In this document: piece by piece, positions 17,827 through 58,787 of the stretch
Layout: every line of letters starts with the position of its first letter
Position numbering within the stretch: position 1 is the stretch's first letter
Source: Candidatus Polarisedimenticolaceae bacterium
Lineage (GTDB): Bacteria > Pseudomonadota > Gammaproteobacteria > Chromatiales > Chromatiaceae
Length of the DNA: 64,000 nucleotides
Assembly: GCA_021648685.1 (NCBI GenBank)
Contig: JAKISI010000003.1
Location: 1 to 64,000 of the forward strand
Reading direction: 5' to 3'
Program-made: the position numbers and the translations under genes
The notes under the pieces: model-generated
What the model was told of the DNA's origin: nothing
The model's database searches: none
Seen by the model: only the letters and a program-made list of their open reading frames with translations

Positions 17827-19059
17827 GTGGAAGCTACCGATAAAAAGCCAGCCCTACTTTTTTTGGTTCACCGTATACCCTTCCCCCCAAATAAAGGCGA
17901 TAAGATTCGTTCTTACCATCTGCTGAAATTCTTACTAAAACAGTACCGTGTTTTCCTGGGTGCCTTTATTGATGATAAAGCAGATTGGAAGCATGTCTCG
18001 CAACTACAAGATTGGTGCGAAGAGAGCTGCTTTATAGAGCTGAATCCTGCTCAAGCAAAAATAAAAAGCCTGCAAGGACTGTTTCTTAAACAGCCCTTGA
18101 CCTTGCCATACTATGCCAGTGATCAGCTTCAGACATGGGTAGACCAGACGATACAGCAACATAATATACAACGGACGCTGGTCTTCTCTTCAGCCATGGC
18201 TCAATACCTTCTGGCACCAAAATATGGAAAAATATGCAGAGTCATTGATTTTGTAGATGTTGATTCAGATAAATGGCAGCAATATTCAGAACGTAAGCCC
18301 TGGCCTCTAAGTTGGGTTTACAAACGTGAAGCCCAAGAGTTACTTTGTTTTGAGCGTGAAGTGGCCATGCAATTTGATGCCAGTCTCTTTGTATCCAGTG
18401 CAGAGGCGCAGTTCTTTAAAGAGCGGGTGCCAGACTGTGCTGAGCGCGTGGATCATTTCAACAATGGCGTTGATACAGAATACTTCTCACCGGATGAGAA
18501 TTTTCCAACCCCTTACAATGAAAGCGAAAAAGTTTTGGTCTTCTCAGGCGCCATGGATTACTGGCCAAATGTTGATGCAGTGATCTGGTTCGCACGGGAT
18601 GTGCTGCCTAAAATCAGAGCGCAACACCCTGATGTGCGATTTTTCATTGTGGGCAGCAACCCCACGGATGCCGTACAACAACTGGCTGCATATCCAGGGG
18701 TTGTTGTGACCGGATTTGTTTTGGATATACGACCTTATCTACAGCATGCCACCTTTGCAGTGGTTCCGATGCGTGTTGCCAGAGGCATCCAAAATAAAGT
18801 ATTAGAAGCCATGGCGATGGCAAAATCTGTACTGGTTACGCCATCAGGCATTGAGGGTATTGATGCAGAACCGGATAAAGATGTGGTGATGGCAGACAAT
18901 TCTGAATCCCTGGTGCGCCAATCGCTGCTTTTGCTGCGGCAGAACGGCAGTGCCATGGGTGCAAAGGCGCGTGAGTTCGTATGTAAGAATTTCAACTGGA
19001 ATGAGAACCTTCCAAAAGTAGGAGAGCTTCTTGAGCAAGGCAGCACAAAAAAGATTTGA
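17827..19059 (+). CDS. XrtA system sugar transferase (TIGR03087-type, GT4-like)
   Basis: This is a cytoplasmic glycosyltransferase for lipid-linked oligosaccharide assembly. The GTG start at 17827 has GGGGAG upstream. The N-terminus (LFLVHRIPFPPNKGDKIRSY) is diagnostic of this XrtA-linked family. The C-terminal GT-B domain has VLVFSGAMDYWPNVDAVIWF and the nucleotide-sugar site IQNKVLEAMAMAKSVLVTPSGIEGI. At 410 residues it is normal in length. It overlaps the exosortase gene by 29 bases in another frame. Confidence 0.92.
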   Translation: MEATDKKPALLFLVHRIPFPPNKGDKIRSYHLLKFLLKQYRVFLGAFIDDKADWKHVSQLQDWCEESCFIELNPAQAKIKSLQGLFLKQPLTLPYYASDQLQTWVDQTIQQHNIQRTLVFSSAMAQYLLAPKYGKICRVIDFVDVDSDKWQQYSERKPWPLSWVYKREAQELLCFEREVAMQFDASLFVSSAEAQFFKERVPDCAERVDHFNNGVDTEYFSPDENFPTPYNESEKVLVFSGAMDYWPNVDAVIWFARDVLPKIRAQHPDVRFFIVGSNPTDAVQQLAAYPGVVVTGFVLDIRPYLQHATFAVVPMRVARGIQNKVLEAMAMAKSVLVTPSGIEGIDAEPDKDVVMADNSESLVRQSLLLLRQNGSAMGAKAREFVCKNFNWNENLPKVGELLEQGSTKKI

Positions 19060-20605
19060 AAGCGGCTTGGTAGAGGCCCATCAATACTGGAGAGTCCCAG
19101 TAGTACTGGCGCTTGGTGTGTTGGTTGGTATTCTGGCGCTATACCACCAGACAGCGTGGTCTATGATCTCTATCTGGCTACGTTCAGATACCTTTGCGCA
19201 TGGTTTTTTGATCCTTCCTATCTCTGCCTGGCTGATTTGGGACAGGCGCAAAGCTCTCACAAACCTGGTTCCAAAGCCAGAATACCGTGCTCTGGTGGTG
19301 CTCTTTGGGGTTGGCTTTTTATGGTTGCTGGGGGATGCAGTAGATGCGCTGGTTGTTCAGCAGCTCGCGCTTGTTTTTATGCTGATCTCTGGCTTGTGGG
19401 TGGTGCTTGGCAACCAGGTCTGCCTGGCCATACTTTTTCCATTACTGTTTCTTCTGTTTGCTGTTCCGATGGGGGAGGAGTTGGTGCCTTCCCTGATGGA
19501 GTTTACTGCTGACTTTACGGTCAAGCTTATACAAATAACGGGTATTCCCGTTTATCGGGAAGGGCTGTTTTTTAGTCTTCCCAGTGGAGAGTGGTCAGTA
19601 GTTGAGGCTTGCAGCGGAATTCGCTACCTCATTGCCTCTATCACTTTAGGCAGCCTCTTTGCCTACCTTACCTACAGCAGTATGACCAAGCGCCTGATTT
19701 TTATGGTGGCAGCAATCATTGTCCCCATTTTTGCGAATGGAATGCGTGCCTACATCATTGTCATGCTGGGTCACTTCAGTGATATGACAGTAGCGGTTGG
19801 TGTAGACCATTTGATTTATGGCTGGGTTTTTTTTGGCGTTGTCATGCTAATTATGTTTAGTGTCGGCGCTATTTGGCGCGACCCTGAAGAGTGTAGTTCC
19901 AAGGCAGGTGACAACATAGGCGCGGCAGCTTTAATTCCACGAAATGGCGCAGCTGGTTTTTGGCGGGCTGGTGTGATTACACTGCTGGCAGTCTCTCTTT
20001 GGCCTCTGGCTTCTGCCGGGCTGAATCAATACCAGCCTGCAACCTCATCTGCACCTGTACAGGCACCCGTTGGAGCAAATGGTTGGCAGCGCATTGAAAA
20101 ACTGGCATGGAGTTGGGAGCCTGAAATTATAGGTGCAGATAGTGTTGCCTTGCAGTTTTATCGTAAGGGTGACGCTGTGGTCAGCCTCTTCTTGTGGCAA
20201 TTTCTTAGCCAGAAGCAAGGTGCAGAGCTGGTAAGCTCGCAGAATCTGATTCTAAAAAAAGATGAGACTATGTGGCGCAGTGTTGAGACGAAAAATATTC
20301 GCGCTACGCTAAAGAATAAAGAAGTATCTCTTGAACAGAGCCACCTGAAAGGGCGAGAGATGCAGCTGTTGGTCTGGCGGTGGTATCGTGTGGGCAGTGA
20401 ATATACTGCGAATAACTATGCAGCCAAGCTACTGGAGGCAAAATCTCGCCTGATGTTTGGGCGACGTGATGGTGCCATTATGATGCTTGCCGCCCCTTTT
20501 GCAGAAAAGCCAGCTACCGCAACAGCCGCCATGCAGGATTTTTTAGATGAGATGCTGCCAGAGATTGAGTTGGCATTAGACCAGGCATCTGGTGAAGCTG
20601 AATGA
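19031..20605 (+). CDS. xrtA: Exosortase A fused to EpsI domain
   Basis: This is a polytopic inner-membrane cysteine transpeptidase-like enzyme that recognises PEP-CTERM sorting signals. The start is a TTG at 19031 with AGGAGAGC upstream. About eight hydrophobic helices fill residues 20-290. The proposed catalytic residues are visible: Cys194 (VVEACSGIRYL), Arg239 (FANGMRAYII) and His260 (GVDHLIYGW). Residues from about 310 to 524 form the EpsI domain (DUF3485 type), including a membrane helix (AGVITLLAVSLWPLASAGL) and LWQFLSQKQGAELVSSQN. EpsI fused to the exosortase is a known arrangement. No PEP-CTERM substrate is encoded in this window. Confidence 0.95.
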   Translation: MSKAAQKRFESGLVEAHQYWRVPVVLALGVLVGILALYHQTAWSMISIWLRSDTFAHGFLILPISAWLIWDRRKALTNLVPKPEYRALVVLFGVGFLWLLGDAVDALVVQQLALVFMLISGLWVVLGNQVCLAILFPLLFLLFAVPMGEELVPSLMEFTADFTVKLIQITGIPVYREGLFFSLPSGEWSVVEACSGIRYLIASITLGSLFAYLTYSSMTKRLIFMVAAIIVPIFANGMRAYIIVMLGHFSDMTVAVGVDHLIYGWVFFGVVMLIMFSVGAIWRDPEECSSKAGDNIGAAALIPRNGAAGFWRAGVITLLAVSLWPLASAGLNQYQPATSSAPVQAPVGANGWQRIEKLAWSWEPEIIGADSVALQFYRKGDAVVSLFLWQFLSQKQGAELVSSQNLILKKDETMWRSVETKNIRATLKNKEVSLEQSHLKGREMQLLVWRWYRVGSEYTANNYAAKLLEAKSRLMFGRRDGAIMMLAAPFAEKPATATAAMQDFLDEMLPEIELALDQASGEAE

Positions 20606-44818: not shown

Positions 44819-45057
44819 ACGGTATTGTTGTATACGCCGCTTGCTTAGTATTTCTTTCAGTAGATGTAGGTTTCTTGCGCTCCGGGAAGCAATAAAATCA
44901 TACCAGCATTTCTATACAAGTTGCTATAAGATATCGCTGCTGCCCGGAGAAAGTTGCGGCACCCAGTCGTAACATAGTGTAATAATAGGGGAAAAACCAA
45001 CCAGATGCCTGTTACCGACTTGAGCCGTGTTTTGTGCCCTAAACTATCCTAGGAAGA

Positions 45058-45249
45058 CTCGGTTGGATTGTTCCGCCAGATAATATTTCATCCCTAAAAA
45101 CCGTGCTGCAGAATCTTATAGAGAATGGTACTGCGTTGTGCTCACCAGATAGTGATTTTGTTGGTGGGTTTGAGCGTCGTAAATTAGTGCAACGGCTTGC
45201 AGAGGTGCTCAACCAAGTTGTTGATGAACCAGCGTCTGTGCAGGGTTAA
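45058..45249 (+). pseudogene. C-terminal remnant of a glycosyltransferase
   Basis: Reading from 45058 gives LGWIVPPDNISSLKTVLQNL, then CSPDSDFVGGFERRKLVQRLAEVLNQVV and a stop at 45249. This looks like the tail of a GT4 enzyme, where the donor domain ends and the last helix packs back. No start or upstream domain is present, so it is a truncated gene. It marks a rearrangement point between the minus-strand pair and the second XrtA segment. Confidence 0.55.
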
Positions 45250-45260
45250 CGGTATTTCAC

Positions 45261-46370
45261 TTGCAAACTGTAGCGCCAATGGAAGTAAAATCATTTTTAC
45301 AATTTGAGCATTTACCATCGGCGTGCAATGCGCTTTTTGAGTCAGCTGCAGCTGAGAGTCCGTTTCTCTCCAGAGAGTGGTTTGAGCACCTGGCTGCTAA
45401 TGCGCTCGATCCAGGTGATGAGATAGTTCTTATTGTTGCTTTTACCAATGAAGGAGAAGCAGCGTGTATTTTACCGTTGCTGCGCCCCGGAAGCTCTGCT
45501 CATTTAGTGTCTATAAAACGATTAGGTGCGTTGCAAAATTTCTATACCCCTGATTTCAGACCCTTGATGCGAGCCGGGGTAGCTGGTGTTGAGGGGATGG
45601 CGGCAATCGCGCACTATCTCTCTTCCAGGTGCTGTTCAATAGATGTAGTGGATATTGGTCCTATACCGAAAGATGAATCAGCTTTTGAGATTTACCAAAA
45701 GGCAGTAAATGAGGCGGGATTTTCATCCAAAGCATATTTTCGTTTTGGTAATCATTATCTGCTGCTCAAAGGGCAAAGCTATAAAGCCTATATGAGTGAA
45801 TTACCATCGCAACTGCGCCATACCCTGGTTCGTAAAGGGCGGCGGCTGGACAGGGAAAAAACAGTAGAATACCGTTTGGTGACAGAGCTGGCGGATGTCC
45901 CGGCTGCTGCACAGGCCTATGATGTTATCTACCGTGAAAGCTGGAAACGACCAGAGCCATACCCGGATTTTATGGAAGGGTTGATGGCTATGGCGGCAGA
46001 CAAGGGATGGCTTCGGTTAGGTTTGTTGTGTATTGATGGTGAACCGGCCGCCTCACATCTCTGGTTTATCTCAGGAGATATTGCATATATATATAAGCTT
46101 GCCTATAGAGAGCGCTATCAAAAATACTCACCTGGTACGCTGCTTATGGGGTGGATGATGGAGCAGGCCATTGATAAAGAGGGTGTGCATAAAGTGGATT
46201 TCTTGACGGGTGATGATAGGTATAAATCTGACTGGATGTCTCATCGATCTGAATTATGGGGTATATTAGCGATGAATCAGGGGACCTGGTGTGGAAAGGC
46301 AATTGCCCTGAGAGAAAAGCTCTATTCATATGCTGCAGGCAAGATGCGTGCAGATGTAAGACAAATTTAG
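45261..46370 (+). CDS. GNAT-family (CelD/BcsL-like) acyltransferase, XrtA-associated
   Basis: This 369-residue protein has a double-GNAT, FemAB/CelD-like layout. The N-terminal part has ESPFLSREWFEHLAANAL and LIVAFTNEGEAACILPLL. The C-terminal part has HTLVRKGRRLDREKTVEYRLV, RLGLLCIDGEPAASHLWFISGDIAYIYKLAYRERYQKYSPGTLLM and KVDFLTGDDRYKSDWM. The GDDRYK segment near the C-terminus is typical. The start is TTG at 45261 or ATG at 45279, both without a strong ribosome-binding site. It leads the acyl carrier protein/hydrolase set and could transfer the carrier-bound group. Confidence 0.83.
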   Translation: MQTVAPMEVKSFLQFEHLPSACNALFESAAAESPFLSREWFEHLAANALDPGDEIVLIVAFTNEGEAACILPLLRPGSSAHLVSIKRLGALQNFYTPDFRPLMRAGVAGVEGMAAIAHYLSSRCCSIDVVDIGPIPKDESAFEIYQKAVNEAGFSSKAYFRFGNHYLLLKGQSYKAYMSELPSQLRHTLVRKGRRLDREKTVEYRLVTELADVPAAAQAYDVIYRESWKRPEPYPDFMEGLMAMAADKGWLRLGLLCIDGEPAASHLWFISGDIAYIYKLAYRERYQKYSPGTLLMGWMMEQAIDKEGVHKVDFLTGDDRYKSDWMSHRSELWGILAMNQGTWCGKAIALREKLYSYAAGKMRADVRQI

Positions 46371-46394
46371 CATCACCGGTTTCAGGAGACCATA

Positions 46395-46646
46395 ATGGCT
46401 GTTGTGGATGAGGTTAGAGAAGTGCTGAGAGATACACTTCAATTGGGAAGCAGGGCAGATGAGCTGGAAGAGAGTTCGCCACTGCTCGGCAGTTTACCTG
46501 AGTTTGATTCAATGGCTGTAATCACGATCATTACATCTCTGGAAGAGCAATATGAGTTCATGGTGAGCGATGATGAGATTGATGCAGAGGCGTTTGAGAC
46601 GGTGGGTACACTGGTAGATTTTGTGCAGTACAAACTTGCCCAGTAG
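46395..46646 (+). CDS. Acyl carrier protein
   Basis: This 83-residue acidic four-helix carrier has its phosphopantetheine attachment Ser39 in PEFDSMAVITI. AGGAGA lies upstream of the ATG at 46395. Its neighbours (acyltransferase, two alpha/beta hydrolases, and further on an AMP-forming ligase and PLP decarboxylase) suggest a dedicated carrier for a substituent, not fatty acid synthesis. Its stop overlaps the GTG start of the next gene. Confidence 0.9.
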   Translation: MAVVDEVREVLRDTLQLGSRADELEESSPLLGSLPEFDSMAVITIITSLEEQYEFMVSDDEIDAEAFETVGTLVDFVQYKLAQ

Positions 46647-47566
46647 TGAGTAAAATTATTGATCCACATCCGCTTTTCCTTCCCGGCCCATCTGGACAGC
46701 TGTTCGCCCTTCATCTTCCGCCCGTAGCGCCAACCTTATGCCGCCAGTATCTGATTCATATCCCTGCTTTTGCTGAGGAGATGAATAAAGCGCGGCATCT
46801 GGTTGCATTGCAAGCACGTGCTTTTGCGCAGCAAGGTGTTGGGGTGCTCATCTTGGATTTATTCGGTACGGGTGATAGTACGGGTGATTTTAAGGATGCC
46901 ACCTGGTCTGCCTGGAAGGAAGATGTGGCGTCTGCTGTGATGTGGCTCAGGCAGCAGGGAGTGGAGCGTATCTCCCTCTGGGGCCTGAGGCTGGGTTGCC
47001 TGTTGGCATTTGATTTTACACAGCAAAGAAGAGGAGAAATCGAAGGGTTGCTCTTTTGGCAGCCACTCCTTGATGGCAGGGTGGCTCTTGATCGGTTCTT
47101 GCGTTTGCAGGTTGCAGCAGGGGCACTTGGCAGAGGCTGCAAGGATACTGTGCAGGGCCTAAGGTCAAGGTTGGCCGCAGAGGAGACATTGGAGATTGGA
47201 GGTTACGAAATTTCACCCATATTGGTGCGTGAACTCGACCACTGTAGCTTTCAATCACTTGGTTTGCCAATGGTTGACAGGGTGGTGTGGGTTGAAATCA
47301 GACGCTTTACTGAATCAGCGGATAGTTTATCTGTTGTTGAGAGTGGTCACTCGCCAGATGTTCGCTTGTTACCTGCATCGAAAAGCATGATTGATGATTG
47401 GCAAGGGTGTGAAACCAAAATCAAGGTTGCGCAGGTGAATGGCCCTTCGTTTTGGCAATCACAGGTAACTGAACCGATGCCTGAGCTGCTAAGCAAGACA
47501 CTGGGGCTTTGGTGGGGTTCGGCATTACCCTCTTTTCAATCCAGTCAGCCGGAGGGGGATGAGTAA
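46646..47566 (+). CDS. Exosortase A-associated hydrolase 2 (alpha/beta fold)
   Basis: This alpha/beta hydrolase-fold protein of 306 residues starts with GTG at 46646, overlapping the ACP stop. It has LILDLFGTGDSTGDF (the DxxGxGxS loop) and the nucleophile-elbow region LWGLRLGCLL (111-120). The position expected for the catalytic Ser (G-x-S-x-G) is Arg115, so the classic nucleophile is missing. It may bind an acyl-ACP or act by another residue. The call follows TIGR03101-type proteins of XrtA loci. Confidence 0.85.
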   Translation: MSKIIDPHPLFLPGPSGQLFALHLPPVAPTLCRQYLIHIPAFAEEMNKARHLVALQARAFAQQGVGVLILDLFGTGDSTGDFKDATWSAWKEDVASAVMWLRQQGVERISLWGLRLGCLLAFDFTQQRRGEIEGLLFWQPLLDGRVALDRFLRLQVAAGALGRGCKDTVQGLRSRLAAEETLEIGGYEISPILVRELDHCSFQSLGLPMVDRVVWVEIRRFTESADSLSVVESGHSPDVRLLPASKSMIDDWQGCETKIKVAQVNGPSFWQSQVTEPMPELLSKTLGLWWGSALPSFQSSQPEGDE

Positions 47567-48412
47567 GTGATGGTTGAAGAGCGAGCCGTCATGTTTTCTT
47601 GCCAGGGTGAGTCACTTATTGGAATAGCTCATATTCCGGAAAAGCCAGCATCAAAGGGCGTTCTGGTAGTGGTGGGTGGCCCGCAGTATCGGGTAGGGAG
47701 TCACCGTCAGTTTCTGCTGCTGGCCAGGTCATTGGCTCAGGGGGGGGTGCCTGTGTTCCGTTTTGACTATCGTGGTATGGGTGATAGTGAAGGTGAGATA
47801 CGGGATTTTGAAGTGATCACTGACGATATCAGGGCAGCAATGGATGCCTTCATATCTGAAGTGGGAGTAAAGGAGGTTGTGCTTTGGGGGCTGTGTGATG
47901 CAGCCACTGCGGCCTGTTTTTATGCGCCAACGGATCGGCGTGTCCCCCATCTTGTTTTGCTGAATCCCTGGGTCAGGTCGGAGGAGGGTGAGGCAAAGGC
48001 CTATCTGAAACACTACTATCTGCATCGGATATTCAGTAGGGATTTTTGGCAGAAACTGATCACAGGCCGGTTTCAGCCAAGAGAGGCAATTCGATCCCTG
48101 CTGGAGCATAGCAAAAAGGCATTCAATGCCGGGGCAAGAGCGCCAGATGAGAGTGAGCGCTTGTCAAAGTTGTCAGGTCGTATGGCAGATGGGTTGGAAT
48201 CTTTTCCGGGGTCGGCGCTGGTGATTTTGAGTGGTGATGACCTGACTGCGGCTGAGTTTAAAGATGAGATAATGGGTTCTTTACGCTGGAAGGCACTGAT
48301 GGCGGAAAAGCTGGATATCAAAGAGCTGCCAGAGGCTGACCATACTTTCTCCCGGAGAGGTTGGCGCGATCAGGTTGCTGAATGGACGCTTGGATGGGTA
48401 CTGAAACCATAA
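47567..48412 (+). CDS. Exosortase A-associated hydrolase 1 (alpha/beta fold)
   Basis: This 281-residue alpha/beta hydrolase starts with GTG at 47567, one base after the previous stop (ATG at 47570 is an alternative), with GGAGGGGG upstream. It has VFRFDYRGMGDSEGE and the elbow VVLWGLCDAATAA. There the expected Ser is Cys110, followed by Asp111. A likely catalytic His is in LPEADHTFSRRGW, and a candidate acid is in ILSGDDLTA. A Cys-nucleophile hydrolase or thioester-acting enzyme is plausible. The next gene overlaps its end by 31 bases. Confidence 0.87.
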   Translation: MMVEERAVMFSCQGESLIGIAHIPEKPASKGVLVVVGGPQYRVGSHRQFLLLARSLAQGGVPVFRFDYRGMGDSEGEIRDFEVITDDIRAAMDAFISEVGVKEVVLWGLCDAATAACFYAPTDRRVPHLVLLNPWVRSEEGEAKAYLKHYYLHRIFSRDFWQKLITGRFQPREAIRSLLEHSKKAFNAGARAPDESERLSKLSGRMADGLESFPGSALVILSGDDLTAAEFKDEIMGSLRWKALMAEKLDIKELPEADHTFSRRGWRDQVAEWTLGWVLKP

Positions 48413-49662
48413 AGAGAGTGCTGCTGATTGCCTATCATTTCCCGCCTGTTGCAGGGAGTAGCGGCGTATTGAGGACGCTGAAGTTTGCACGATACCTTCC
48501 TGAGTTTGGCTGGCGGCCCTCAGTTTTAACGGTGCACCCGAGAGCCTATGAGCGTCTATCCGACAGCCAGCTTGCACAGGTATCCAGAGATGTACCTGTG
48601 GTCAGGGCCTTTGCCCTTGATGCTGCACGTCATATGGCGCTGGCTGGGCGTTATCCACGCTGCTTTGCGCTGCCGGATCGTTGGGTAAGCTGGCTGTTGG
48701 GGGCCGTTCCTGCCGGATTGAAGATGGTACGAGAACAGCGTCCTCTGGTTCTCTGGTCTACTTACCCTATGCCGACAGCGCATCTTGTTGGCCTCTTCCT
48801 GCATCGGCTAACAGGACTACCCTGGATTGCCGATTGTCGCGACAGCATGCTGGATGATACTTACCCGGCTGACCCATTAAAGCGCCGAATCCATGCCTGG
48901 ATTGAACGGCGTGTGGTTCATTCAGCCAAACGCATAGTGTTTACCACCCCAGGTACACTGCGAATGTATGCTGAGCGATATCCTGAGGTTCCTAAGGATC
49001 GATGGGTGCTGATTGCGAATGGCTATGATGAAGAGGATTTTTGCGAGCAGCTTAATGCTACTGTTGTGCCAGATGGTTTTTCGGGAAAACAGACATTGTT
49101 GCACAGTGGTTTGATCGACCCTGTTGACCGTGATCCACGCCCTTTTCTTACTGCGTTATCCCGGCTCAAGCAGTCTGGAGGTATTAAGCCGCAGGAGTTG
49201 CGCGTTGTGTTTCGTGCATCTGGATTGGATGATGAGTTGCGGTCATGGATTCATGCATTGGAGATAGATGATGTTGTGGAGACGGCACCACCACTTCCAT
49301 ATCATGAAGCGCTTGCTGAAATGAGAGAAGCAACCGCTTTGCTGCTATTGCAAGGTGCATGCTGCAATCACCAGATTCCGGCAAAACTTTACGAGTATCT
49401 TAGAGTGGGGCGCCCTATTGTCGGGCTTACTGATGCTGAGGGTGATAGTGCTGCACTATTGCGAGAGCTTGCCGCAGACACAATTCTGCCGCTGGATGAT
49501 GAAACTGTAATAATGGCGACCCTTCCCGATGTTCTCATGAAGTTACAGGCGGGGTGTTTACCGATAGCCGCTGATGAGGCTGTTGCATTGCATTCGAGGC
49601 GGAGCCGTACAGCAGAGCTTGCATTGTTGCTTGATCAGGTGATTCTGGAGGTGGGTAGCTAA
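48382..49662 (+). CDS. Glycosyltransferase (GT4-like)
   Basis: This 426-residue GT-B enzyme has N-terminal VLLIAYHFPPVAGSSGVLRTLKFARYLPEFGW, resembling the minus-strand enzyme at 42180. The C-terminal domain has TLLHSGLIDPVDRDPRPFLTAL and NHQIPAKLYEYLRVGRPIVGLTDAEGD. The start may be 48382 or ATG 48394; both lie inside hydrolase 1. It is the last gene of this + strand run and converges on the flippase. Confidence 0.87.
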   Translation: MDAWMGTETIKRVLLIAYHFPPVAGSSGVLRTLKFARYLPEFGWRPSVLTVHPRAYERLSDSQLAQVSRDVPVVRAFALDAARHMALAGRYPRCFALPDRWVSWLLGAVPAGLKMVREQRPLVLWSTYPMPTAHLVGLFLHRLTGLPWIADCRDSMLDDTYPADPLKRRIHAWIERRVVHSAKRIVFTTPGTLRMYAERYPEVPKDRWVLIANGYDEEDFCEQLNATVVPDGFSGKQTLLHSGLIDPVDRDPRPFLTALSRLKQSGGIKPQELRVVFRASGLDDELRSWIHALEIDDVVETAPPLPYHEALAEMREATALLLLQGACCNHQIPAKLYEYLRVGRPIVGLTDAEGDSAALLRELAADTILPLDDETVIMATLPDVLMKLQAGCLPIAADEAVALHSRRSRTAELALLLDQVILEVGS

Positions 49663-49711
49663 AGCCATTTGGCAGCTGTTACCAAAGCAAGGTTTGCTGT
49701 TGCATTGCAGT

Positions 49712-51154
49712 TTAGGCTCTGGAGCGCCTGAAAATCTGAAGCAGCTCCTGAGCATCACGGCGATTCAACAGCCAGACAGCAGCAACGTAGCTGGCTGCAC
49801 CGATAAGTATTTGAGTGGCCAGTCTGGCCATCCCCTCGAGATTGATGGTGAAATCAAAGGATATAATACAGAGCGCCATCAATACTGCTGGAATGGCCGA
49901 GCGACAAAGTTGTGTGAGTACCTCTAGTGCAGAGATATCTACAATCTGGGCCGTCCGAAAGATAACAACCAGTAAAATAGCGCAGGCAGCAATACTCCAT
50001 CCCATACTTACGCCAACCAGCCCTGCTTGTGATCCGATGGCGACTGCTACTGCCATCAGGACAAGACCAATGCCCATATTGCTAAAAGAGAGGCGAGCCA
50101 TGCCGAGCGCCTGTAAAAAAGGGGAGATGGCAGCCTGTGCGACGCGAACGGGCATGGCAAAAGAGATGATTTGAAGTGGCAGCACGGCATCAAGCCACTG
50201 TTCGCCCAGTAGTTGCGGTACAAAAACAGGTGCAGTAATGGCTATACCCCAGAAAACCGGAAATGAGAGTATGGCACTCAAGCGGATATATTTACAGAGG
50301 TAGTAATTTGGTGCGCCACCTGAACGATGTGCCTCGGCATAGGCGGGTAAGGCCACGGCATTCAGCGTTCCCTGCACCTTGGTTTGGGGAAGTTGAGCGA
50401 GCTCTTTTGCAACAGAATAACTGCCTAATTGTGTGCCGCCCAGGGTTAAGCCGATTATAAAAATATCGGCCTGTGACCATAGCTTCCAAAGCATCTGTTC
50501 CAATGTTACCCATGAGCTGAAGGCAAGTGTTTTGCGAAGGCCTCGAAAATCAAATGATGGCCAGCCAGGCAAGGTGGTGAAACATGCAAAAAGAATGGCG
50601 TTGAGAATATGTGTAAACAGCATGCCCCAAACCAGAGCCCACACGCCTTTGCCAAGGTAGGCCAATATAAGGGTTAGTATGCCGCCGCTCAATGTGCCTG
50701 TAAGTTCGATGAGTGAGATTGTGCGTAGATTGAGTTTGCGCAGCAACAGAGCCCTTGGCACAACCGTAAATCCACTTATCAAGAGCGTAAGGGCAAGTGT
50801 GAAAAGTACGGGTGTTAGCGCAGGAGTGTTGAAGAGGTTAGCGATAATGTGGGCGGTTGCGCTGAGGATCAACCCCAGAGTGGTTGCAACAGTAAGCGTA
50901 AAACCGAGAGTCTGGCGTATGAATGTTTCGGATAGGGTTTCAGCTTTTATCAATGCTGCGCCTAACCCGAATTCTGTTAGCGGGGAGAGCAAGGAGATGA
51001 ACAGCATGGCCAGAGCCATGGTTCCGTAATCCTGCGGGCTGAGCAGGCGAATGATATACAGTGTCATTGCCCAGCTTAATATTTGTCCAATAACTTTAAC
51101 GCCACCCGACCAGGCGAGAGCGTGCAGGACTAATCTGCGCAGATCTGGAGTCAC
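49712..51154 (-). CDS. Lipopolysaccharide biosynthesis protein / flippase (Wzx-like)
   Basis: This 480-residue polytopic MOP-superfamily transporter is the second flippase of the window. It starts with GTG at 51154 (MTPDLRRLVLHALAWSGGVKVIGQILSWAMTLYIIRLLSPQDYGTMAL). Pairs of hydrophobic helices run throughout. It is a single minus-strand gene between the glycosyltransferase and the amidotransferase, with a 102-base divergent spacer to the latter. Confidence 0.9.
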   Translation of the reverse strand: MTPDLRRLVLHALAWSGGVKVIGQILSWAMTLYIIRLLSPQDYGTMALAMLFISLLSPLTEFGLGAALIKAETLSETFIRQTLGFTLTVATTLGLILSATAHIIANLFNTPALTPVLFTLALTLLISGFTVVPRALLLRKLNLRTISLIELTGTLSGGILTLILAYLGKGVWALVWGMLFTHILNAILFACFTTLPGWPSFDFRGLRKTLAFSSWVTLEQMLWKLWSQADIFIIGLTLGGTQLGSYSVAKELAQLPQTKVQGTLNAVALPAYAEAHRSGGAPNYYLCKYIRLSAILSFPVFWGIAITAPVFVPQLLGEQWLDAVLPLQIISFAMPVRVAQAAISPFLQALGMARLSFSNMGIGLVLMAVAVAIGSQAGLVGVSMGWSIAACAILLVVIFRTAQIVDISALEVLTQLCRSAIPAVLMALCIISFDFTINLEGMARLATQILIGAASYVAAVWLLNRRDAQELLQIFRRSRA

Positions 51155-51256
51155 AGTGTCAGTAGCTTATTTGTGGTGGCTGAAAACGGATCTATTAGTA
51201 TGTTGTTGCTTAATGAAATAAGATTAACATCTAGCTATATTCTTTGGGAGGAATAG

Positions 51257-53089
51257 ATGTACGGATTCTGTGGATGGACTGGCTCAGAGCAGTGGAATAC
51301 AACGGCTGCGGTAGAAGCTGTCAGTCAAACCCTGGGTTGGGAAGGCAAGCAGGTAATATCTGATTTTGCTGGTGTCGCTGCTCAGTTTGTCTTGTGTAAA
51401 GAGCTCTATTCTATTGAGGTCTGGAACCAGGATGGGGTGGCGGCCATTGTGTTGGGTTCGCCTGAGTGGAGCAGTGAGCCGTATGCAGAGATAGTCCGTG
51501 GGCAAGGGCAGGCAGCCGCTTTTGCGAAAGGCTATCAAGAGATGGGGCCTAATATCCTGAAGCAGATTCACGGCCCTTTTGCTGTAGCAGTCACCGTTGA
51601 AGATAAGGTGTTTTTGGCGGTAGACCGCCTTGGTATTCATGCGCTGAGCTACGGTTTAAAAGATGGCATATTCGCATTTGGTTCCTCACCCCGAAGTGTG
51701 GCGGCACATCCAGCCTTTGGCTTGGATCTGAATCCCCAGGCAATATTTCACTTCTTTTTCTTTTCGGATGTCCCCAGTCCAGGTTCTATCTACCCGGATG
51801 TTGAGAAGTTGCAGCCAGCCCAATATGTAGAGTATTCCAATGGTCGCCTGCATCGGGATTTTTACTGGGATATAAAATATGTCGATGCAGGTGCGCCTCA
51901 ATTTGAAGAGTTAAAGGGCCGTTTTCATGAGACGCTTGAAAATGCAGTGCGCCGCAGTTATGACGGGGCGCCAGCCGCCGCTTTTTTGAGTGGCGGCACA
52001 GATAGCTCCACGGTAACGGGTGTGCTGGCCCGTGTTGCGGGAGAGTCGGTACATACCTATTCGATGGGTTTCTCTGTCGATGGGTTTGATGAGATGGAGT
52101 ATGCCAGAATAGCGGTCAAGCATTTTGGAGCAACTCCCCACGAGTTCTATGTGACACCAGAGGATGTGCTGAATACGCTGCCTGTTCTTGCCAGTGCCTA
52201 TGATGAACCTTTTGGCAATGAATCGGCCGTCTCTTCTTATCTGTGTGCCAGTTATGCAAAGAGAGATGGTGTAAAGGTGTTGCTGGCGGGGGATGGCGGT
52301 GATGAGGTTTTTGGCGGTAATGAGCGTTATTCAAAGCAGATGGTTTTTGAGCATTATGCCCGGATACCTGAATTCTTCTCTAAAAACATATTAGAGCCAG
52401 TTATTTTTGGCTTTCCTGGTGGCGGGGCGTTATGGCCTGTTCGAAAGGCGCGCAGCTACATTGAACAGGCGCATGTTCCGCTGCCAGATCGGCTGGAGAG
52501 CTATAACCATCTGTGTCGAACATCACTTGACTCTATTTTTGAACCGGAATTTCTGGATAAGATCAATCAGGATCAACCGATTGCGATGTTGCGAGAGAGC
52601 TATAATCGTGCGCAATCTGAACATCCTGTAAACCGGATGTTGCACTTGGATATGAAATTCACCTTGGCTGACAATGATCTGCGTAAGGTCTCCCGCACCT
52701 GTGAGGCAGCAGGTATTGAGGTGCGTTATCCATTGCTGGATGAGGCCTTGGTTGAATTTGCAGCTGAGCTGCCGCCAGACTACAAGGTGCGTGGTTCACA
52801 CTTGCGCTGGTTTTATAAGGAGGCGCTGAAAGGTTTTCTGCCCAAGGAGATCATTGAGAAGCAAAAGCATGGTTTTGGGCTGCCGTTTGGCGAATGGGCG
52901 CTTTCTCATCCATCTTTAAATGCTGAGGTGGAGAGGTTAACCCAGGACTTTATGGCACGCGGGATTATTCGCCCAGAGTATCTTTCAGAGGTAAAGCGTC
53001 GTCATGCTGAGGAGCATGCCACATTCTATGGCACTATGTTATGGCGGATTGCCATGTTGGAAGCGTGGATGCAGGCCCATGGTTATTAG
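51257..53089 (+). CDS. Asparagine synthase-like amidotransferase with degenerate glutaminase domain
   Basis: This 610-residue protein has a strong GGGAGG ribosome-binding site. The second residue is Tyr instead of Cys (MYGFCGWTG), and the glutaminase motif RGPD is missing, so glutamine hydrolysis by the usual route is not expected. The synthetase domain is intact: SGGTDSS (245-251) and LLAGDGGDEVFGGNERY. It could use free ammonia, take ammonia or an amine from a partner, or adenylate a substrate for another nucleophile. It converges on the PLP decarboxylase and is part of the second XrtA segment. Confidence 0.87.
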   Translation: MYGFCGWTGSEQWNTTAAVEAVSQTLGWEGKQVISDFAGVAAQFVLCKELYSIEVWNQDGVAAIVLGSPEWSSEPYAEIVRGQGQAAAFAKGYQEMGPNILKQIHGPFAVAVTVEDKVFLAVDRLGIHALSYGLKDGIFAFGSSPRSVAAHPAFGLDLNPQAIFHFFFFSDVPSPGSIYPDVEKLQPAQYVEYSNGRLHRDFYWDIKYVDAGAPQFEELKGRFHETLENAVRRSYDGAPAAAFLSGGTDSSTVTGVLARVAGESVHTYSMGFSVDGFDEMEYARIAVKHFGATPHEFYVTPEDVLNTLPVLASAYDEPFGNESAVSSYLCASYAKRDGVKVLLAGDGGDEVFGGNERYSKQMVFEHYARIPEFFSKNILEPVIFGFPGGGALWPVRKARSYIEQAHVPLPDRLESYNHLCRTSLDSIFEPEFLDKINQDQPIAMLRESYNRAQSEHPVNRMLHLDMKFTLADNDLRKVSRTCEAAGIEVRYPLLDEALVEFAAELPPDYKVRGSHLRWFYKEALKGFLPKEIIEKQKHGFGLPFGEWALSHPSLNAEVERLTQDFMARGIIRPEYLSEVKRRHAEEHATFYGTMLWRIAMLEAWMQAHGY

Positions 53090-53098
53090 CTGCTGACC

Positions 53099-54343
53099 TT
53101 AAACAATTAACTCCATACAGGATGGGTGGCTGAGAAAATGCTCCGGGCTGGCGGTATAACCGTAGGCGCCTGATTGGTAGATGGCTACTAAATCACCAAT
53201 TCCCGCCTGAGGTAGCTCCATCTTGTTCGCCAGTATATCCAGTGGAGTACAGAGCAGGCCAACAACATTGACCATTTCCAGTATCGTGGACTCCATTTTG
53301 TTTGCGATTGTGACGGGATAGTTTTTGCGTATTATCTGCCCAAAATTGCCTGATGCGGCCAGGTGGTGGTGCAGTCCGCCATCTGTGATCAGGAATTTCT
53401 CTCCGCGTGACTCTTTTATATCAATGATTTTGCAGATGTAGATTCCAGCTTCTCCTACAAGGTAGCGTCCCAGCTCGGTAACAATTTCTGCTTCGGGAAG
53501 TTCCGCTTTCAGTGAAGGCAGCAGCTTGTTCAGATTTTCTCCAATGGGTGCCAGATCAAGCCGCTTCTCTCCGGGAAAGTAGGGGATGCCCAATCCCCCA
53601 CCGATGTTGAGAGATTGTACTGTGTCTGGAGCCTGTTCACTGAGTCGGATCGCCAGGTTAAAGGTTTTTTCATGTGCTTCCATGATGGCTTCCGGGTTAA
53701 GGTTTTGCGAACCCCAGAAGATGTGGAAGCCAAAGAATTTCAGCCCCAGTTGGCCTAGCTCTTTCAGCATGGCTGGAACGCGTTCTGCATCGACGCCAAA
53801 CTGTTTTGGGCCGCCGCCCATTTTCATGCCGGAGGATTTGAGGTCGTAGTCCGGGTTTACCCGTACTGCTACGCGAGGGGCAATGCCCAGCACTTCGCCA
53901 ACCTGGGCAGTTCGGCGCATTTCACCCTCTGACTCGAGGTTGATGGTGATGCCTGCAGCGATGGCTTGGCGCAGTTCTTTATCCGTTTTTCCAGGGCCTG
54001 CTACGCTGATTTTGGTGGCGGGCATGGTGGTATCTAATGCTGTTTTCATCTCTCCTGCAGAGGCCAAGTCAAATCCATCTACCAGTCCTGCCAGGTGTTG
54101 CACAATGGCGGGCATAGGGTTGGCCTTGATGGCGTAATGAATATGAATCTCTTCTGGTAGTGAGTGCCGAAGGTTTTCTACACGTTCGGTAATCAGTTTT
54201 CTGTCGTAGGCGTAAAAAGGAGTTTGCCCCGCACGCTCTGCTAGCTGTGTGATAGGAACGCCGCCAATATACAGCTCTCCATCCATGATTGGGAACTGAT
54301 TCATTGGCGCATGTATCGGCCTTTTTTTCACTTTTGATTCCAT
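53099..54343 (-). CDS. PLP-dependent decarboxylase, exosortase A-associated (fold III)
   Basis: This 414-residue enzyme belongs to the diaminopimelate/ornithine decarboxylase group (TIGR03099-type). PLP binds Lys73 in IHYAIKANP. Other motifs are FDLASAGEMKTAL, FGFHIFWGSQ, NIGGGLGIPYF and ELGRYLVGEAG, and the substrate-side segment is LLCTPLDILANKM. It probably decarboxylates an amino acid, perhaps one bound to the carrier protein, as BtrK does in butirosin synthesis. It lies 3 bases downstream of the acyl ligase on the same strand and is cotranscribed with it. Confidence 0.9.
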   Translation of the reverse strand: MESKVKKRPIHAPMNQFPIMDGELYIGGVPITQLAERAGQTPFYAYDRKLITERVENLRHSLPEEIHIHYAIKANPMPAIVQHLAGLVDGFDLASAGEMKTALDTTMPATKISVAGPGKTDKELRQAIAAGITINLESEGEMRRTAQVGEVLGIAPRVAVRVNPDYDLKSSGMKMGGGPKQFGVDAERVPAMLKELGQLGLKFFGFHIFWGSQNLNPEAIMEAHEKTFNLAIRLSEQAPDTVQSLNIGGGLGIPYFPGEKRLDLAPIGENLNKLLPSLKAELPEAEIVTELGRYLVGEAGIYICKIIDIKESRGEKFLITDGGLHHHLAASGNFGQIIRKNYPVTIANKMESTILEMVNVVGLLCTPLDILANKMELPQAGIGDLVAIYQSGAYGYTASPEHFLSHPSCMELIV

Positions 54344-54346
54344 AAG

Positions 54347-55921
54347 TTAACTGAAGATATCTTGGTATTTTGAGGCTAATAGCTTTCGGTCAATTTTACC
54401 ATTTGGGTTTCTTGGCAGGCTGTCGGCATGTTCAATGGCGTGTGGCACCATGAAGTTGGGCAGCTCTTTTTTGCAGTGGGTGATGATGGCGTCGTTATTC
54501 AGAGGAGTCTCTGATGTGACGATAACCAAGATGCCCTGGCCTAGTGTGGGGTGAGGGATGCCAAGTGCAACAGCCTCGCTGACCAACTTGCTGGAGTAGA
54601 TCGCTTCTTCAATTTCGGTGGGGCTGATGCGATAGCCAGAGGTTTTTATCATGTCATCTTTGCGTCCGACAAAATAGAGAAATCCCTCTTCGTCCATTTT
54701 TACCCGGTCACCTGACCAGACGGCAATCTCTGGCATTGTGAGTGCGTTGTCCTGACCAGGGGTCGGTTTAAATATTTTTGCGGTTTTCTCCGGGGCATTC
54801 CAGTATCCCAGTGAGACCAGTGAGCCACGATGCACCAGTTCGCCAGGCTCGCCGGGCAAGCAGTGGCTGCCATCTTCGCGAACGACCATCACCTCGACGT
54901 TGGGGATCGCTTTGCCCATGGAGTCGGGGCGGTTGTCGATCTCCTCTGGTGGCAGGTAGGTTGAGCGAAAGGCTTCGGTCAGGCCGTACATGAGGTAGAA
55001 CTGGCTGTTGGGCAGGGCAGTGCGCAGGCTGTTGAGTGTCGCCTTGGGCATGGCACCACCGGAGTTTGTCATGTAGCGCAGCGATTTCACAGCCTCTTCT
55101 GGCCATTCAAGTTGGGTCAGCTGATTCCAGAGGGGCGGGACTGCCGCCAACCCGGTAATCTGGTGGTGCGCGACGGCTTTGACAACATCTCGTGGTAACA
55201 GGTAGTCCATCAGCACAACTGAAGCGCCTACTGAGAAGGCTGTCGTGAGTTGGCTGAGTCCATAATCAAAACTGAAAGGAAGAACGGCCAGTAACTTGTC
55301 TTCTGGCTTGTTTTCAAGATATTGGGCGACACTTTTGGCTCCCGCAACCATGTTTCTGTGTGAGAGTACAACGCCTTTGGGACTTCCAGTGCTGCCGGAA
55401 GTGTATAGGATGGCTGCCATATCATTGTCGATGCGGCGGTGATATTTGCAGTTTGTTGAGCTCTCGGTCAGTTGATCCCAGTTGAGAGTCTCTATGGCAT
55501 GCAGTTTCTGTATGGATGCCCTTTTGTTGTCAACCAGGATGATGGCTCTGAGGTCATGGCAGCCTGCAAGTGCATCGCTTAACAGCCTGAGTCGATCTGA
55601 TGAGGTGACCAGGATGCGGACATTGCAGTCTTTCAGGATGTAGCTCACCTGATTGGGTTTAAGTAGTGGGTTGACTGGAACAAATACACCGCCTGCCTTG
55701 GCTGCTCCAAAGATGCTACATACAGTCTCGGGGAGCTTTGGGAGATAGGTGGCTATTCGCTCGGATGGTTGCAATCCCAATGCGATAAACCCAGCGGCTG
55801 TTTGGCTGACATGCAAGGTGAGTTCAGAGTAGGTGAATGTTGCTTTCTTGTAAATGAGCGCCGGTGCATGTGGAGTACTGGCAGCCTGTTTTTCAATAAA
55901 ATAATGAATCAACCCTGACAT
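54347..55921 (-). CDS. AMP-forming acyl-CoA/ACP ligase, exosortase A-associated
   Basis: This 524-residue ANL-superfamily enzyme (TIGR03098-type) has the P-loop TSGSTGSPKG (174-183), LMYGLTEAFRSTYL, SGDRVKMDEEGFLYFVGRKDDMIKTSGYRISPTEIEE and the C-terminal catalytic Lys region NPNGKIDRKLL. It should activate a carboxylic or amino acid as adenylate and load it on the carrier protein or CoA. It is upstream of and coupled to the PLP decarboxylase. Its promoter lies in the AT-rich region beyond 55921. Confidence 0.9.
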   Translation of the reverse strand: MSGLIHYFIEKQAASTPHAPALIYKKATFTYSELTLHVSQTAAGFIALGLQPSERIATYLPKLPETVCSIFGAAKAGGVFVPVNPLLKPNQVSYILKDCNVRILVTSSDRLRLLSDALAGCHDLRAIILVDNKRASIQKLHAIETLNWDQLTESSTNCKYHRRIDNDMAAILYTSGSTGSPKGVVLSHRNMVAGAKSVAQYLENKPEDKLLAVLPFSFDYGLSQLTTAFSVGASVVLMDYLLPRDVVKAVAHHQITGLAAVPPLWNQLTQLEWPEEAVKSLRYMTNSGGAMPKATLNSLRTALPNSQFYLMYGLTEAFRSTYLPPEEIDNRPDSMGKAIPNVEVMVVREDGSHCLPGEPGELVHRGSLVSLGYWNAPEKTAKIFKPTPGQDNALTMPEIAVWSGDRVKMDEEGFLYFVGRKDDMIKTSGYRISPTEIEEAIYSSKLVSEAVALGIPHPTLGQGILVIVTSETPLNNDAIITHCKKELPNFMVPHAIEHADSLPRNPNGKIDRKLLASKYQDIFS

Positions 55922-56174
55922 AATTTATGAGCTCTTGATGGTTGTATGTGGTTTTTATGTGTGTAACAGGTTCAATAGCAGATTAGAGGAGAGATGTTCC
56001 CGTGATTCAATAAGCTGTGCCCTTCAACATATAAGGTGCAACGGAATTATAGCAGTCATTACTGATTATCCTAAGGAGATTGATGTGGGATGCTCACTGT
56101 ATAAAACTGGTTTTGTCAGTCAAGGCTCAGGGAGTCATTTGCGGGTGTTGGGTGGTGTCTTAGGCGTGTTCGAT
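55922..56174. other. Spacer without a recognisable gene
   Basis: The stretch between the acyl ligase start and the second palindromic element has a short + strand open frame with no protein-like features and no family that I recognise. It probably holds the promoter of the minus-strand acyl ligase operon. Confidence 0.4.
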
Positions 56175-56338
56175 CCAGGAGGCTGTCCGAGAATAGAAGA
56201 TCTACTGTAGAACAGCCATTTCGGCCAGATTTTCCGATCAAGCTCGTTAAATATGGCCTATATTCGTCTCATTTGATCGAAAAATCTGACTCAAAATGGC
56301 TGCTCCTCGCTACGATCTCTATTCTCGGGCAGCCTCCT
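56175..56338. mobile_element. 164-bp palindromic MITE-like element, copy 2
   Basis: It has the same ends as copy 1 (28145-28311): CCAGGAGGCTGTCCGAGAAT on the left, and CTATTCTCGGGCAGCCTCCT on the right with one mismatch. The centre GTTAAATATGGCCTATATTC is also shared. The arms (56211-56245 pairing with 56266-56301) differ from copy 1 but remain complementary to each other. The right arm supplies the last 15 codons and stop of the VanZ protein gene on the minus strand. Confidence 0.8.
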
Positions 56339-58690: not shown

Positions 58691-58787
58691 GAGGCTCTGT
58701 TCTGGGTTCGTATGTTTTACTTGGTTAGTGATCGACTCAGTTTAAGGTATTAACAATATGGGTAGGGTATAGCGCTAAACCTGCACC

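Follow-up and report, generated by a model that had tools for sequence, protein, structure and literature searches.

The window analysed here is a stretch of 64,000 nucleotides from a Candidatus Polarisedimenticolaceae bacterium (contig JAKISI010000003.1, positions 1 to 64,000). Within its exosortase A (XrtA) locus, eight genes lie between positions 46395 and 55921, in the order acyl carrier protein (ACP), hydrolase 2, hydrolase 1, glycosyltransferase, flippase, AsnB-like protein, decarboxylase and ligase. Three of their products (ACP, ligase and decarboxylase) probably form the core of a pathway in which an amino acid is decarboxylated while bound to the carrier protein. The ACP (46395..46646, forward strand) scored 26.5 bits with Pfam PF00550 PP-binding (cut-off 20.8) and carries its phosphopantetheine site, Ser39, in the motif EFDSM. 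Its stop overlaps by 1 base the start of 'hydrolase 2' (46646..47566, forward; TIGR03101, 270 bits, cut-off 203), an alpha/beta-hydrolase pseudo-enzyme, which is followed by the alpha/beta hydrolase 'hydrolase 1' (47567..48412, forward; TIGR03100, 353 bits, cut-off 168). On the reverse strand are an AMP (adenosine monophosphate)-forming, VinN-like ligase (54347..55921; TIGR03098, 814 bits, cut-off 592) and a BtrK-like fold-III decarboxylase dependent on pyridoxal phosphate (PLP) (53099..54343; TIGR03099, 622 bits, cut-off 478). Between these groups lie a GT4-like glycosyltransferase (48382..49662, forward; PF13579, 58 bits), a Wzx-type flippase (49712..51154, reverse; PF13440, 234 bits) and an AsnB-like amide ligase (51257..53089, forward; PF00733, 281 bits). 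Coordinates and family scans placed every gene named in a preliminary description of this DNA where it had been described, including the spacing of 3 bases between the ligase stop and the decarboxylase start.

Decarboxylase, ligase and carrier protein

Among solved structures the decarboxylase was closest in sequence to BtrK (7ru7, 249 bits, against 181 bits for the best diaminopimelate decarboxylase, DAPDC), and a profile search gave 338 versus 224 bits. Lys73, in what we take to be the PLP-lysine motif, is present in 81 of 81 aligned TIGR03099-type decarboxylases, in which the motif residues are invariant or nearly so (counts of conserved residues here and below include the window's own protein). 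A motif table of 43 rows was compiled, ten of which are clear DAPDC rows (the genome's own LysA, eight relatives from the class and 2p3e) and 14 XrtA-type. CE stands in all ten DAPDC rows where XrtA-type enzymes and BtrK carry CTP, and MND in nine of the ten where BtrK and the XrtA-type enzymes have HHH (HHQ in one XrtA-type row). RPxxY is found in 9/10 DAPDC rows and is absent from BtrK and the 14 XrtA-type rows. The window enzyme has HHHLAASGNFGQ and CTPLD in place of the DAPDC motifs RPxxY and CE(S/T)xD, which are presumably tied to the DAPDC substrate. The parallel with BtrK drawn in the preliminary description is therefore supported: BtrK exceeds every solved DAPDC in sequence likeness to the window enzyme, and motifs are shared.

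Further XrtA-type motifs, (A/S)AS and R-x-NYP, follow HHH. An (A/S)ASGN loop and R/K-x-N-Y/F are common to XrtA-type enzymes and the ACP-linked enzymes of Aureimonas, Shinella and Burkholderia cenocepacia; those of Streptomyces and Paracoccus, and BtrK itself, carry variants. The AASGN loop may read the carrier arm. In a tree, ten LysA rows formed a separate clade with support of 100/100, which holds the genome's own LysA-type gene on contig C27. A divergent sequence labelled DAPDC-like when fetched (L134) fell outside this clade with SbnH. In published work BtrK falls into a single clade together with DAPDC and further decarboxylases that have no role in polyamine synthesis or use (PMC7857480, in excerpt).

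The best single-domain solved match of the ligase was VinN, at 248 bits versus 148 bits for the better domain of LgrA. LgrA itself was rejected as the nearest relative, its higher total being the sum of two domains, the second of which is an A domain without the triad described below. For the same reason, only LgrA entries passed the strict limit in a profile search. The VinN recognition residues Asp230/Ser299/Arg331 align with Asp219/Ser287/Arg319 of the window ligase, the construct numbering of VinN being taken by us as +16. Among the aligned ligases the Asp and the Arg are kept in 73/73, and the middle position is Ser in 61 and Thr in 12. Asp, Ser/Thr and Arg were likewise present in 13/13 ligases of varied genomic context, the window's included; no ligase was found in a fourteenth such locus (L138). 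The full triad occurs in none of seven other AMP-binding enzymes of the genome; of these, L145 and L146 align poorly. By sequence, then, the ligase resembles VinN, a beta-amino-acid ligase that loads 3-methylaspartate on an ACP. The triad suggests that the amino acid is gripped by its alpha groups and activated at its other carboxyl, which would point to aspartate. A substrate that is either aspartate or methylaspartate is likely, and aspartate itself reasonably so. The loading of an amino acid on the ACP, as originally suggested, thus agrees with the VinN likeness and the triad, but instead of the glutamate of the BtrK example the likely substrate is aspartate joined through its side-chain carboxyl, with beta-alanyl-ACP as the expected product. 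A VinN-type triad (Asp/Thr/Arg) was also seen in a ligase on a plasmid of Streptomyces sp. NBC_01208, where a compact run (L135:8001-11944) encodes a decarboxylase, a holo-ACP synthase, a hotdog protein, the AMP ligase and an ACP, and then ectoine-type genes.

The carrier protein had been described correctly. Besides the Pfam match, Ser39 is kept in 55/55 and Asp38 in 54/55 aligned ACPs, and the genome holds one gene of the phosphopantetheinyl transferase family (PF01648). The ACP passed the cut-off of no named NCBIfam model, the best being AsbD (42 bits against 100).

Conservation and distribution

Contigs with a decarboxylase match were collected, and the best 80 of 584 loci were compared, presence being counted within the fetched DNA. 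The ligase was found in 74/80 loci. In 70 of these 74, open-frame coordinates show it as the same-strand neighbour immediately upstream of the decarboxylase, so the arrangement is not due to chance. Of the six ligase-less loci, three start no more than 0.7 kb from the locus end; a genome-wide search for the other three found a ligase over the cut-off elsewhere in two. The ACP was found in 54/80 loci. Genome-wide searches covering 13 of the 26 ACP-less loci returned a strong ACP match in 11 (E 4.3e-18 or better); in nine of these hydrolases 2 and 1 follow the ACP, and in the other two the fetched pieces show the ACP alone. By best match the AsnB-like protein occurs in 46/80 loci, hydrolase 1 in 44/80 and hydrolase 2 in 41/80. 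Six fused frames raise the hydrolase 2 count to 47 loci, all 47 of which also hold the ACP, as a same-strand neighbour in 45.

The link to XrtA was surveyed in 232 genomes of the class, the window's own included, with curated cut-offs; G096, in which the decarboxylase is split over two contigs, was not counted as a carrier. XrtA was found in 45/232 genomes, the decarboxylase in 25/232 and both in 17 (Fisher p = 1.6e-8, kinship ignored). However, 28 of the 45 XrtA genomes (G096 among them) have no decarboxylase over the cut-off, and eight of the 25 decarboxylase genomes have no XrtA over the cut-off (five no match, three a weaker match). The module is therefore linked to XrtA, yet not obligatory. 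Ten loci were fetched from such genomes, eight XrtA-less and two with sub-cut-off decarboxylases. An ACP match was found in six of them (one weak), of which one, L116, has no ligase in its stretch; the other four stretches gave none.

ACP, ligase and decarboxylase genes also stand together in polysaccharide-type clusters of Shinella, Aureimonas and Paracoccus plasmids and of S. meliloti, where the decarboxylase lies in two frames in the record. The annotation of the 17-26 kb shown of these clusters lists no exosortase, though the plasmid gene tables are incomplete. On the Streptomyces plasmid the trio is accompanied by the holo-ACP synthase. Pfam searches of unannotated proteins near the ligase in Aureimonas, Shinella and S. 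meliloti gave one methyltransferase-like protein, one sub-cut-off GNAT (E 0.014) and no match for the rest. An ACP with an invariant serine thus accompanies the ligase and decarboxylase both inside and outside XrtA loci. This distribution suggests that ACP, ligase and decarboxylase are the core, to which the hydrolases and the AsnB-like protein are an XrtA-type extension, and that a polysaccharide is a likelier destination of the product than the exosortase. We accordingly give some preference to a polysaccharide as the acceptor.

Hydrolases, AsnB-like protein and neighbouring genes

The two alpha/beta hydrolases differ in their active sites. Hydrolase 1 holds the nucleophile, acid and histidine of a catalytic alpha/beta hydrolase, and the fold match agrees: in 44 aligned sequences Cys110 is present in 44, His259 in 42 (2 gaps) and Asp225 in 41 (2 gaps, 1 Ser). 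In hydrolase 2 the nucleophile elbow carries Arg115 (48/48), and Phe269-Trp270 (45/46, one gap) occupies the C-terminal stretch where the catalytic histidine would be expected. Both hydrolases of the preliminary description are therefore present, but the second is without a catalytic nucleophile. Hydrolases 2 and 1 are naturally fused in six loci (L025, L039, L040, L054, L057, L063). The AlphaFold model of the L054 fusion (predicted local distance difference test score, pLDDT, 83; predicted template modelling score, pTM, 0.82) was searched against known structures, and both halves matched alpha/beta hydrolases, mostly esterases and lipases. DcsB (7d78, Z 23.1) and GrgF (6lzh, Z 22.5), also weak matches by sequence, were among the hits; we take both to be enzymes that use a cysteine and join rather than hydrolyse acyl groups. 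To our knowledge a cysteine instead of a serine is unusual for a plain hydrolase, and a cysteine nucleophile with a dead partner would fit acyl transfer better than plain hydrolysis.

The preliminary description had given the final step to a transferase and had listed GNAT/FemAB-like transferases in the same range. Both exist, but the GNAT-type protein (Acetyltransf_6; 45261..46370, forward; PF13480, 114 bits), upstream of the ACP, falls just outside 46395-55921, and the XrtA-type FemAB protein (16782-17813) is far from the ACP, ligase and decarboxylase genes. A GNAT relative was found in 20/80 loci, weak ones counted. The best candidate is hydrolase 1, which bears the Cys, together with the pseudo-enzyme hydrolase 2, and the GNAT-type protein is a candidate alternative. 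Within a GDP-fucose/GT61 cluster on plasmid pFER4 of Paracoccus ferrooxidans (L137:5625-9206), the genes for ligase, ACP and decarboxylase come directly after one annotated as serine acetyltransferase, which is another candidate transferase.

No obvious transferase replacing the hydrolases was found among the neighbours in seven ACP loci without hydrolase 2; the neighbours there were beta-helix proteins and genes for taking up or activating sulfate. In L014/L114, L045 and L081, all without hydrolase 1/2, the ACP has sulfate genes as direct or next-but-one neighbours (ATP sulfurylase/adenosine 5'-phosphosulfate (APS) kinase, CysN-type with APS kinase, sulfate-type transporter), and the S. meliloti cluster has a sulfotransferase (L092:1362-2102). 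The polysaccharides made there are perhaps sulfated.

The AsnB-like protein keeps Ser245, Asp249, Ser250 and Ser251 of the synthetase site (45/45). Its N-terminus, MYGFCGW, has no Cys2, presumably the glutaminase residue of glutamine-dependent asparagine synthases, and Cys2 was absent from 37/37 relatives with a readable N-terminus (of 46; 7 were unreadable and 2 short ones were left out). The label of asparagine synthase-like enzyme thus suits the synthetase site but not the missing glutaminase residue, and because of this combination the amine that the protein joins to a carboxylate is likely not glutamine-derived ammonia. Its nearest solved relatives by profile were a hydroxyamidotransferase (127 bits), AsnB (96) and human-type asparagine synthetases (62-63), with weaker matches to CarA (47) and beta-lactam synthetase (46). 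It scored 296 bits with TIGR03108, far under the cut-off of 817; a TIGR03108 relative with an intact Cys2 lies in the same locus (22538-24451). In 32/46 loci the AsnB-like gene comes next after the decarboxylase gene on the same strand, whereas in the window the two are convergent.

The XrtA gene of the window (19031..20605, forward; TIGR03109, 356 bits, cut-off 208) is accompanied by exopolysaccharide export, tyrosine kinase, FemAB, glycosyltransferase and PEP-type O-ligase genes. Family scans covered the genes of the window up to 35312 and from 43592 to 58788. Inside the XrtA locus a PaaK-like adenylate-forming enzyme is encoded at 26718-28121, with relatives in Massilia loci (L030, L037, L068). 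A protein of 799 amino acids with three VanZ-type stretches (56291-58690) adjoins the ligase and has matches, some weak, in 10/80 loci. The same genome holds a second exosortase (G000:C57:3099-3881; 198 bits, under the XrtA cut-off).

Proposed pathway and alternatives

From these data we propose that the core of the module performs ACP-bound aminoacyl decarboxylation, to which we assign a probability of about 85%. Phosphopantetheine would be put on Ser39 of the ACP; the ligase would adenylate L-aspartate, or methylaspartate, at its side-chain carboxyl and transfer it to the ACP; and the PLP enzyme would take off the free alpha-carboxyl to give beta-alanyl-S-ACP, carrier-bound and with a free amine. 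Homology to tested enzymes and active-site residues make these three steps, taken jointly, likely. Hydrolase 1, held by hydrolase 2, might then use its cysteine to relieve the ACP of its acyl group and deliver this to an acceptor; a hydroxyl or amine on a sugar of the exopolysaccharide would be the most likely one. Finally, the AsnB-like enzyme might link a carboxylate to an amine, perhaps the newly made one, as a cap or cross-link. Of the original scheme of loading, decarboxylation and transfer, the first two steps are backed by sequence, and the transfer to glycan or protein has been revised as to its likely enzyme.

Several observations weigh against this proposal. One genome with the decarboxylase gave no ligase over the cut-off in the genome-wide search, and of the 13 genomes searched for a missing ACP (from the 26 ACP-less loci) one gave a weak match and one none. 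The VinN triad shows that the alpha-amino and alpha-carboxyl groups are held and does not fix the chain length. The AASGN loop varies among the ACP-linked enzymes of Streptomyces, Paracoccus and Shinella, and although TIGR03099 enzymes stand on the same side of the tree as BtrK, the node that unites them with BtrK and the ACP-linked enzymes is modestly supported (84/67) and BtrK has a long branch. Active-site comparison with BtrK and free-substrate decarboxylases, suggested in the preliminary description, separated the two by motif, but a fold search gave a near tie (BtrK Z 39.3, DAPDC 1twi Z 38.8); because fold does not distinguish them, the structural match was not used for the substrate. 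A decarboxylase 45% identical to the window's, on plasmid pAZKH of Azoarcus sp. KH32C (L136:7941-9254), keeps HHH, is without the AASGN loop, and is not accompanied within 8 kb by any listed ligase or ACP gene, so homology of the decarboxylase alone is no proof of ACP dependence. Hydrolases 1 and 2 are missing from the fetched DNA in 7/54 ACP loci, and hydrolase 1 is over its cut-off in two of the ten genomes fetched for lack of XrtA or for sub-cut-off decarboxylases; these hydrolases are therefore not core. The Azoarcus enzyme is annotated as alanine racemase, stands among formylmethanofuran and tetrahydromethanopterin-type genes and is possibly a cofactor-pathway decarboxylase.

The same ACP-bound logic could serve another amino acid, such as a beta-amino acid, 3-methylaspartate or glutamate, the last loaded by its gamma-carboxyl and giving gamma-aminobutyryl-S-ACP as in butirosin. 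Glutamyl-ACP is the substrate of BtrK, the nearest decarboxylase of solved structure, and the Thr in place of Ser287 in 12/73 ligases implies that pockets vary. However, the triad is regarded as serving (methyl)aspartate in VinN and, on grounds of similarity, in BolO, and macrolactam ligases for substrates with a beta-position carboxyl load 3-methylaspartate or aspartate, according to PMC11284099. A different amino acid is thus rather unlikely. In a greater departure, the ligase would activate fatty or other organic acids as an acyl-CoA (coenzyme A) or acyl-ACP ligase, and the decarboxylase would be a separate enzyme acting on a free amino acid and giving a free amine (e.g. beta-alanine or a diamine) for use elsewhere in the locus. 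The NCBI name of the ligase is indeed 'acyl-CoA ligase', CoA-ligase types make up most of the best 25 of 106 matching families (strongest 341 bits), and the Azoarcus relative shows the decarboxylase in a cluster without a listed ligase or ACP. We consider such a separation unlikely, given VinN as best single-domain match, the conserved triad, the adjoining ligase and decarboxylase genes, the nearby ACP and the absence of the DAPDC motifs. That absence, together with the separate LysA-type gene at C27 in the LysA clade, also led us to reject a second diaminopimelate or lysine decarboxylase supplying lysine or cadaverine to the polysaccharide, an idea that has the shared fold and a sub-cut-off TIGR01048 lysA match (245 bits, cut-off 298) in its favour and that we regard as barely credible.

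The transfer step is tentative. That the hydrolase 1/2 pair is an acyltransferase has, in our estimate, slightly less than an even chance. Hydrolase 1 could instead be a proofreading or release thioesterase, or a deprotecting enzyme like VinJ, which we take to remove the N-cap (protecting group) in the vicenistatin pathway, the real transferase being the GNAT, FemAB or another protein. The esterases and lipases that predominate among its sequence and fold relatives suit this role, as does the GNAT gene adjoining the ACP, and N-capping of a carrier-bound amine is known in a parallel pathway (VinM; PMC11284099, in excerpt). Against it stand the Cys for Ser in 44/44 sequences and the small share of loci with a GNAT relative. 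We give it somewhat less than an even chance, too.

A bolder extension of ACP-bound decarboxylation is that the module supplies the amine nucleophile for the exosortase: XrtA would attach cleaved PEP-CTERM proteins to a beta-alanyl group that hydrolase 1/2 had set on a glycan or lipid-linked sugar. If so, this group would be the missing acceptor of the PEP-CTERM system in loci holding both. We think this very unlikely, and since 28/45 XrtA genomes are without a decarboxylase over the cut-off and 8/25 decarboxylase genomes without an XrtA over the cut-off, beta-alanyl could be at most one of several XrtA acceptors.

Were the proposed pathway correct, the exosortase-locus families without an assigned substrate (the two 'hydrolases', the 'acyl-CoA ligase', the 'decarboxylase' and the AsnB-like protein) would become one pathway. 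Antibiotic-type carrier-protein chemistry would then serve envelope polymers, a positively charged beta-alanyl decoration would be predicted on the exopolysaccharides of many environmental proteobacteria, and the Cys/pseudo-enzyme pair would be a candidate glycan acyltransferase.

Comparison with known systems

The chemistry proposed here is known from antibiotic biosynthesis and would probably be new for polysaccharide or exosortase loci. No ACP-bound decarboxylation pathway was found assigned to exosortase/PEP-CTERM loci in listings of open-licence papers or in passages on Dechloromonas (PMC2907700) and stieleriacines (PMC7293339), and the terms decarboxylase, ligase, hydrolase and carrier are all absent from the main text of Haft 2006 (PMC1569441). 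N-acyl amino acid synthase genes often adjoin PEP-CTERM systems (PMC7293339, in excerpt, citing Craig et al. 2011), a separate amino-acid tie of these loci, other than the present pathway. The window proteins exceed the curated cut-offs of TIGR03098, TIGR03099, TIGR03100 and TIGR03101 (NCBIfam, 'exosortase A system-associated'), models that are graded 'hypoth_equivalog' and name no substrate. To these models the present analysis adds the predicted use of aspartate, the link to an ACP and the division of the hydrolases into a Cys and an Arg type.

Vicenistatin biosynthesis likewise has a stand-alone AMP ligase, a stand-alone ACP and a PLP decarboxylase (VinN, VinL and VinO, compared here by alignment for VinN and by description for VinO and VinL). 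There the thioester must be formed before VinO can decarboxylate, and the product gets an alanyl cap from VinM and primes a polyketide synthase (PMC11284099, in excerpt). The neighbours in the window are instead a glycosyltransferase, a flippase, an exosortase and the alpha/beta-hydrolase pair. In butirosin biosynthesis BtrK, which works together with the carrier BtrI, is the nearest solved decarboxylase by sequence and the top, though tied, match by structure. BtrJ, the butirosin loading enzyme, is presumably of a different type from the window ligase. BtrK acts on an ACP-bound amino acid, as proposed here, but its substrate is glutamate (PMC7857480, in excerpt). The bolagladin system of Burkholderia gladioli, likened by description, has a VinN-like ligase, an ACP and a BtrK-like decarboxylase (BolO/BolC/BolN), for which conversion of aspartate to beta-alanyl-ACP has been proposed; deletion of bolN abolishes bolagladin and beta-alanine does not rescue it. 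This system differs in feeding a nonribosomal peptide synthetase and in being followed by a flavin dehydrogenase. A cluster of B. cenocepacia has a ligase 48% and a decarboxylase 50% identical to the window's, with ACP and acyl-CoA-dehydrogenase genes. In D-alanylation by DltA and DltC, a ligase and a carrier protein put an amine-bearing acyl group on teichoic acid without decarboxylation. The pathway proposed here would share with Dlt a ligase and carrier that place an amine-bearing acyl group onto an envelope polymer, and would differ from it in the decarboxylation.

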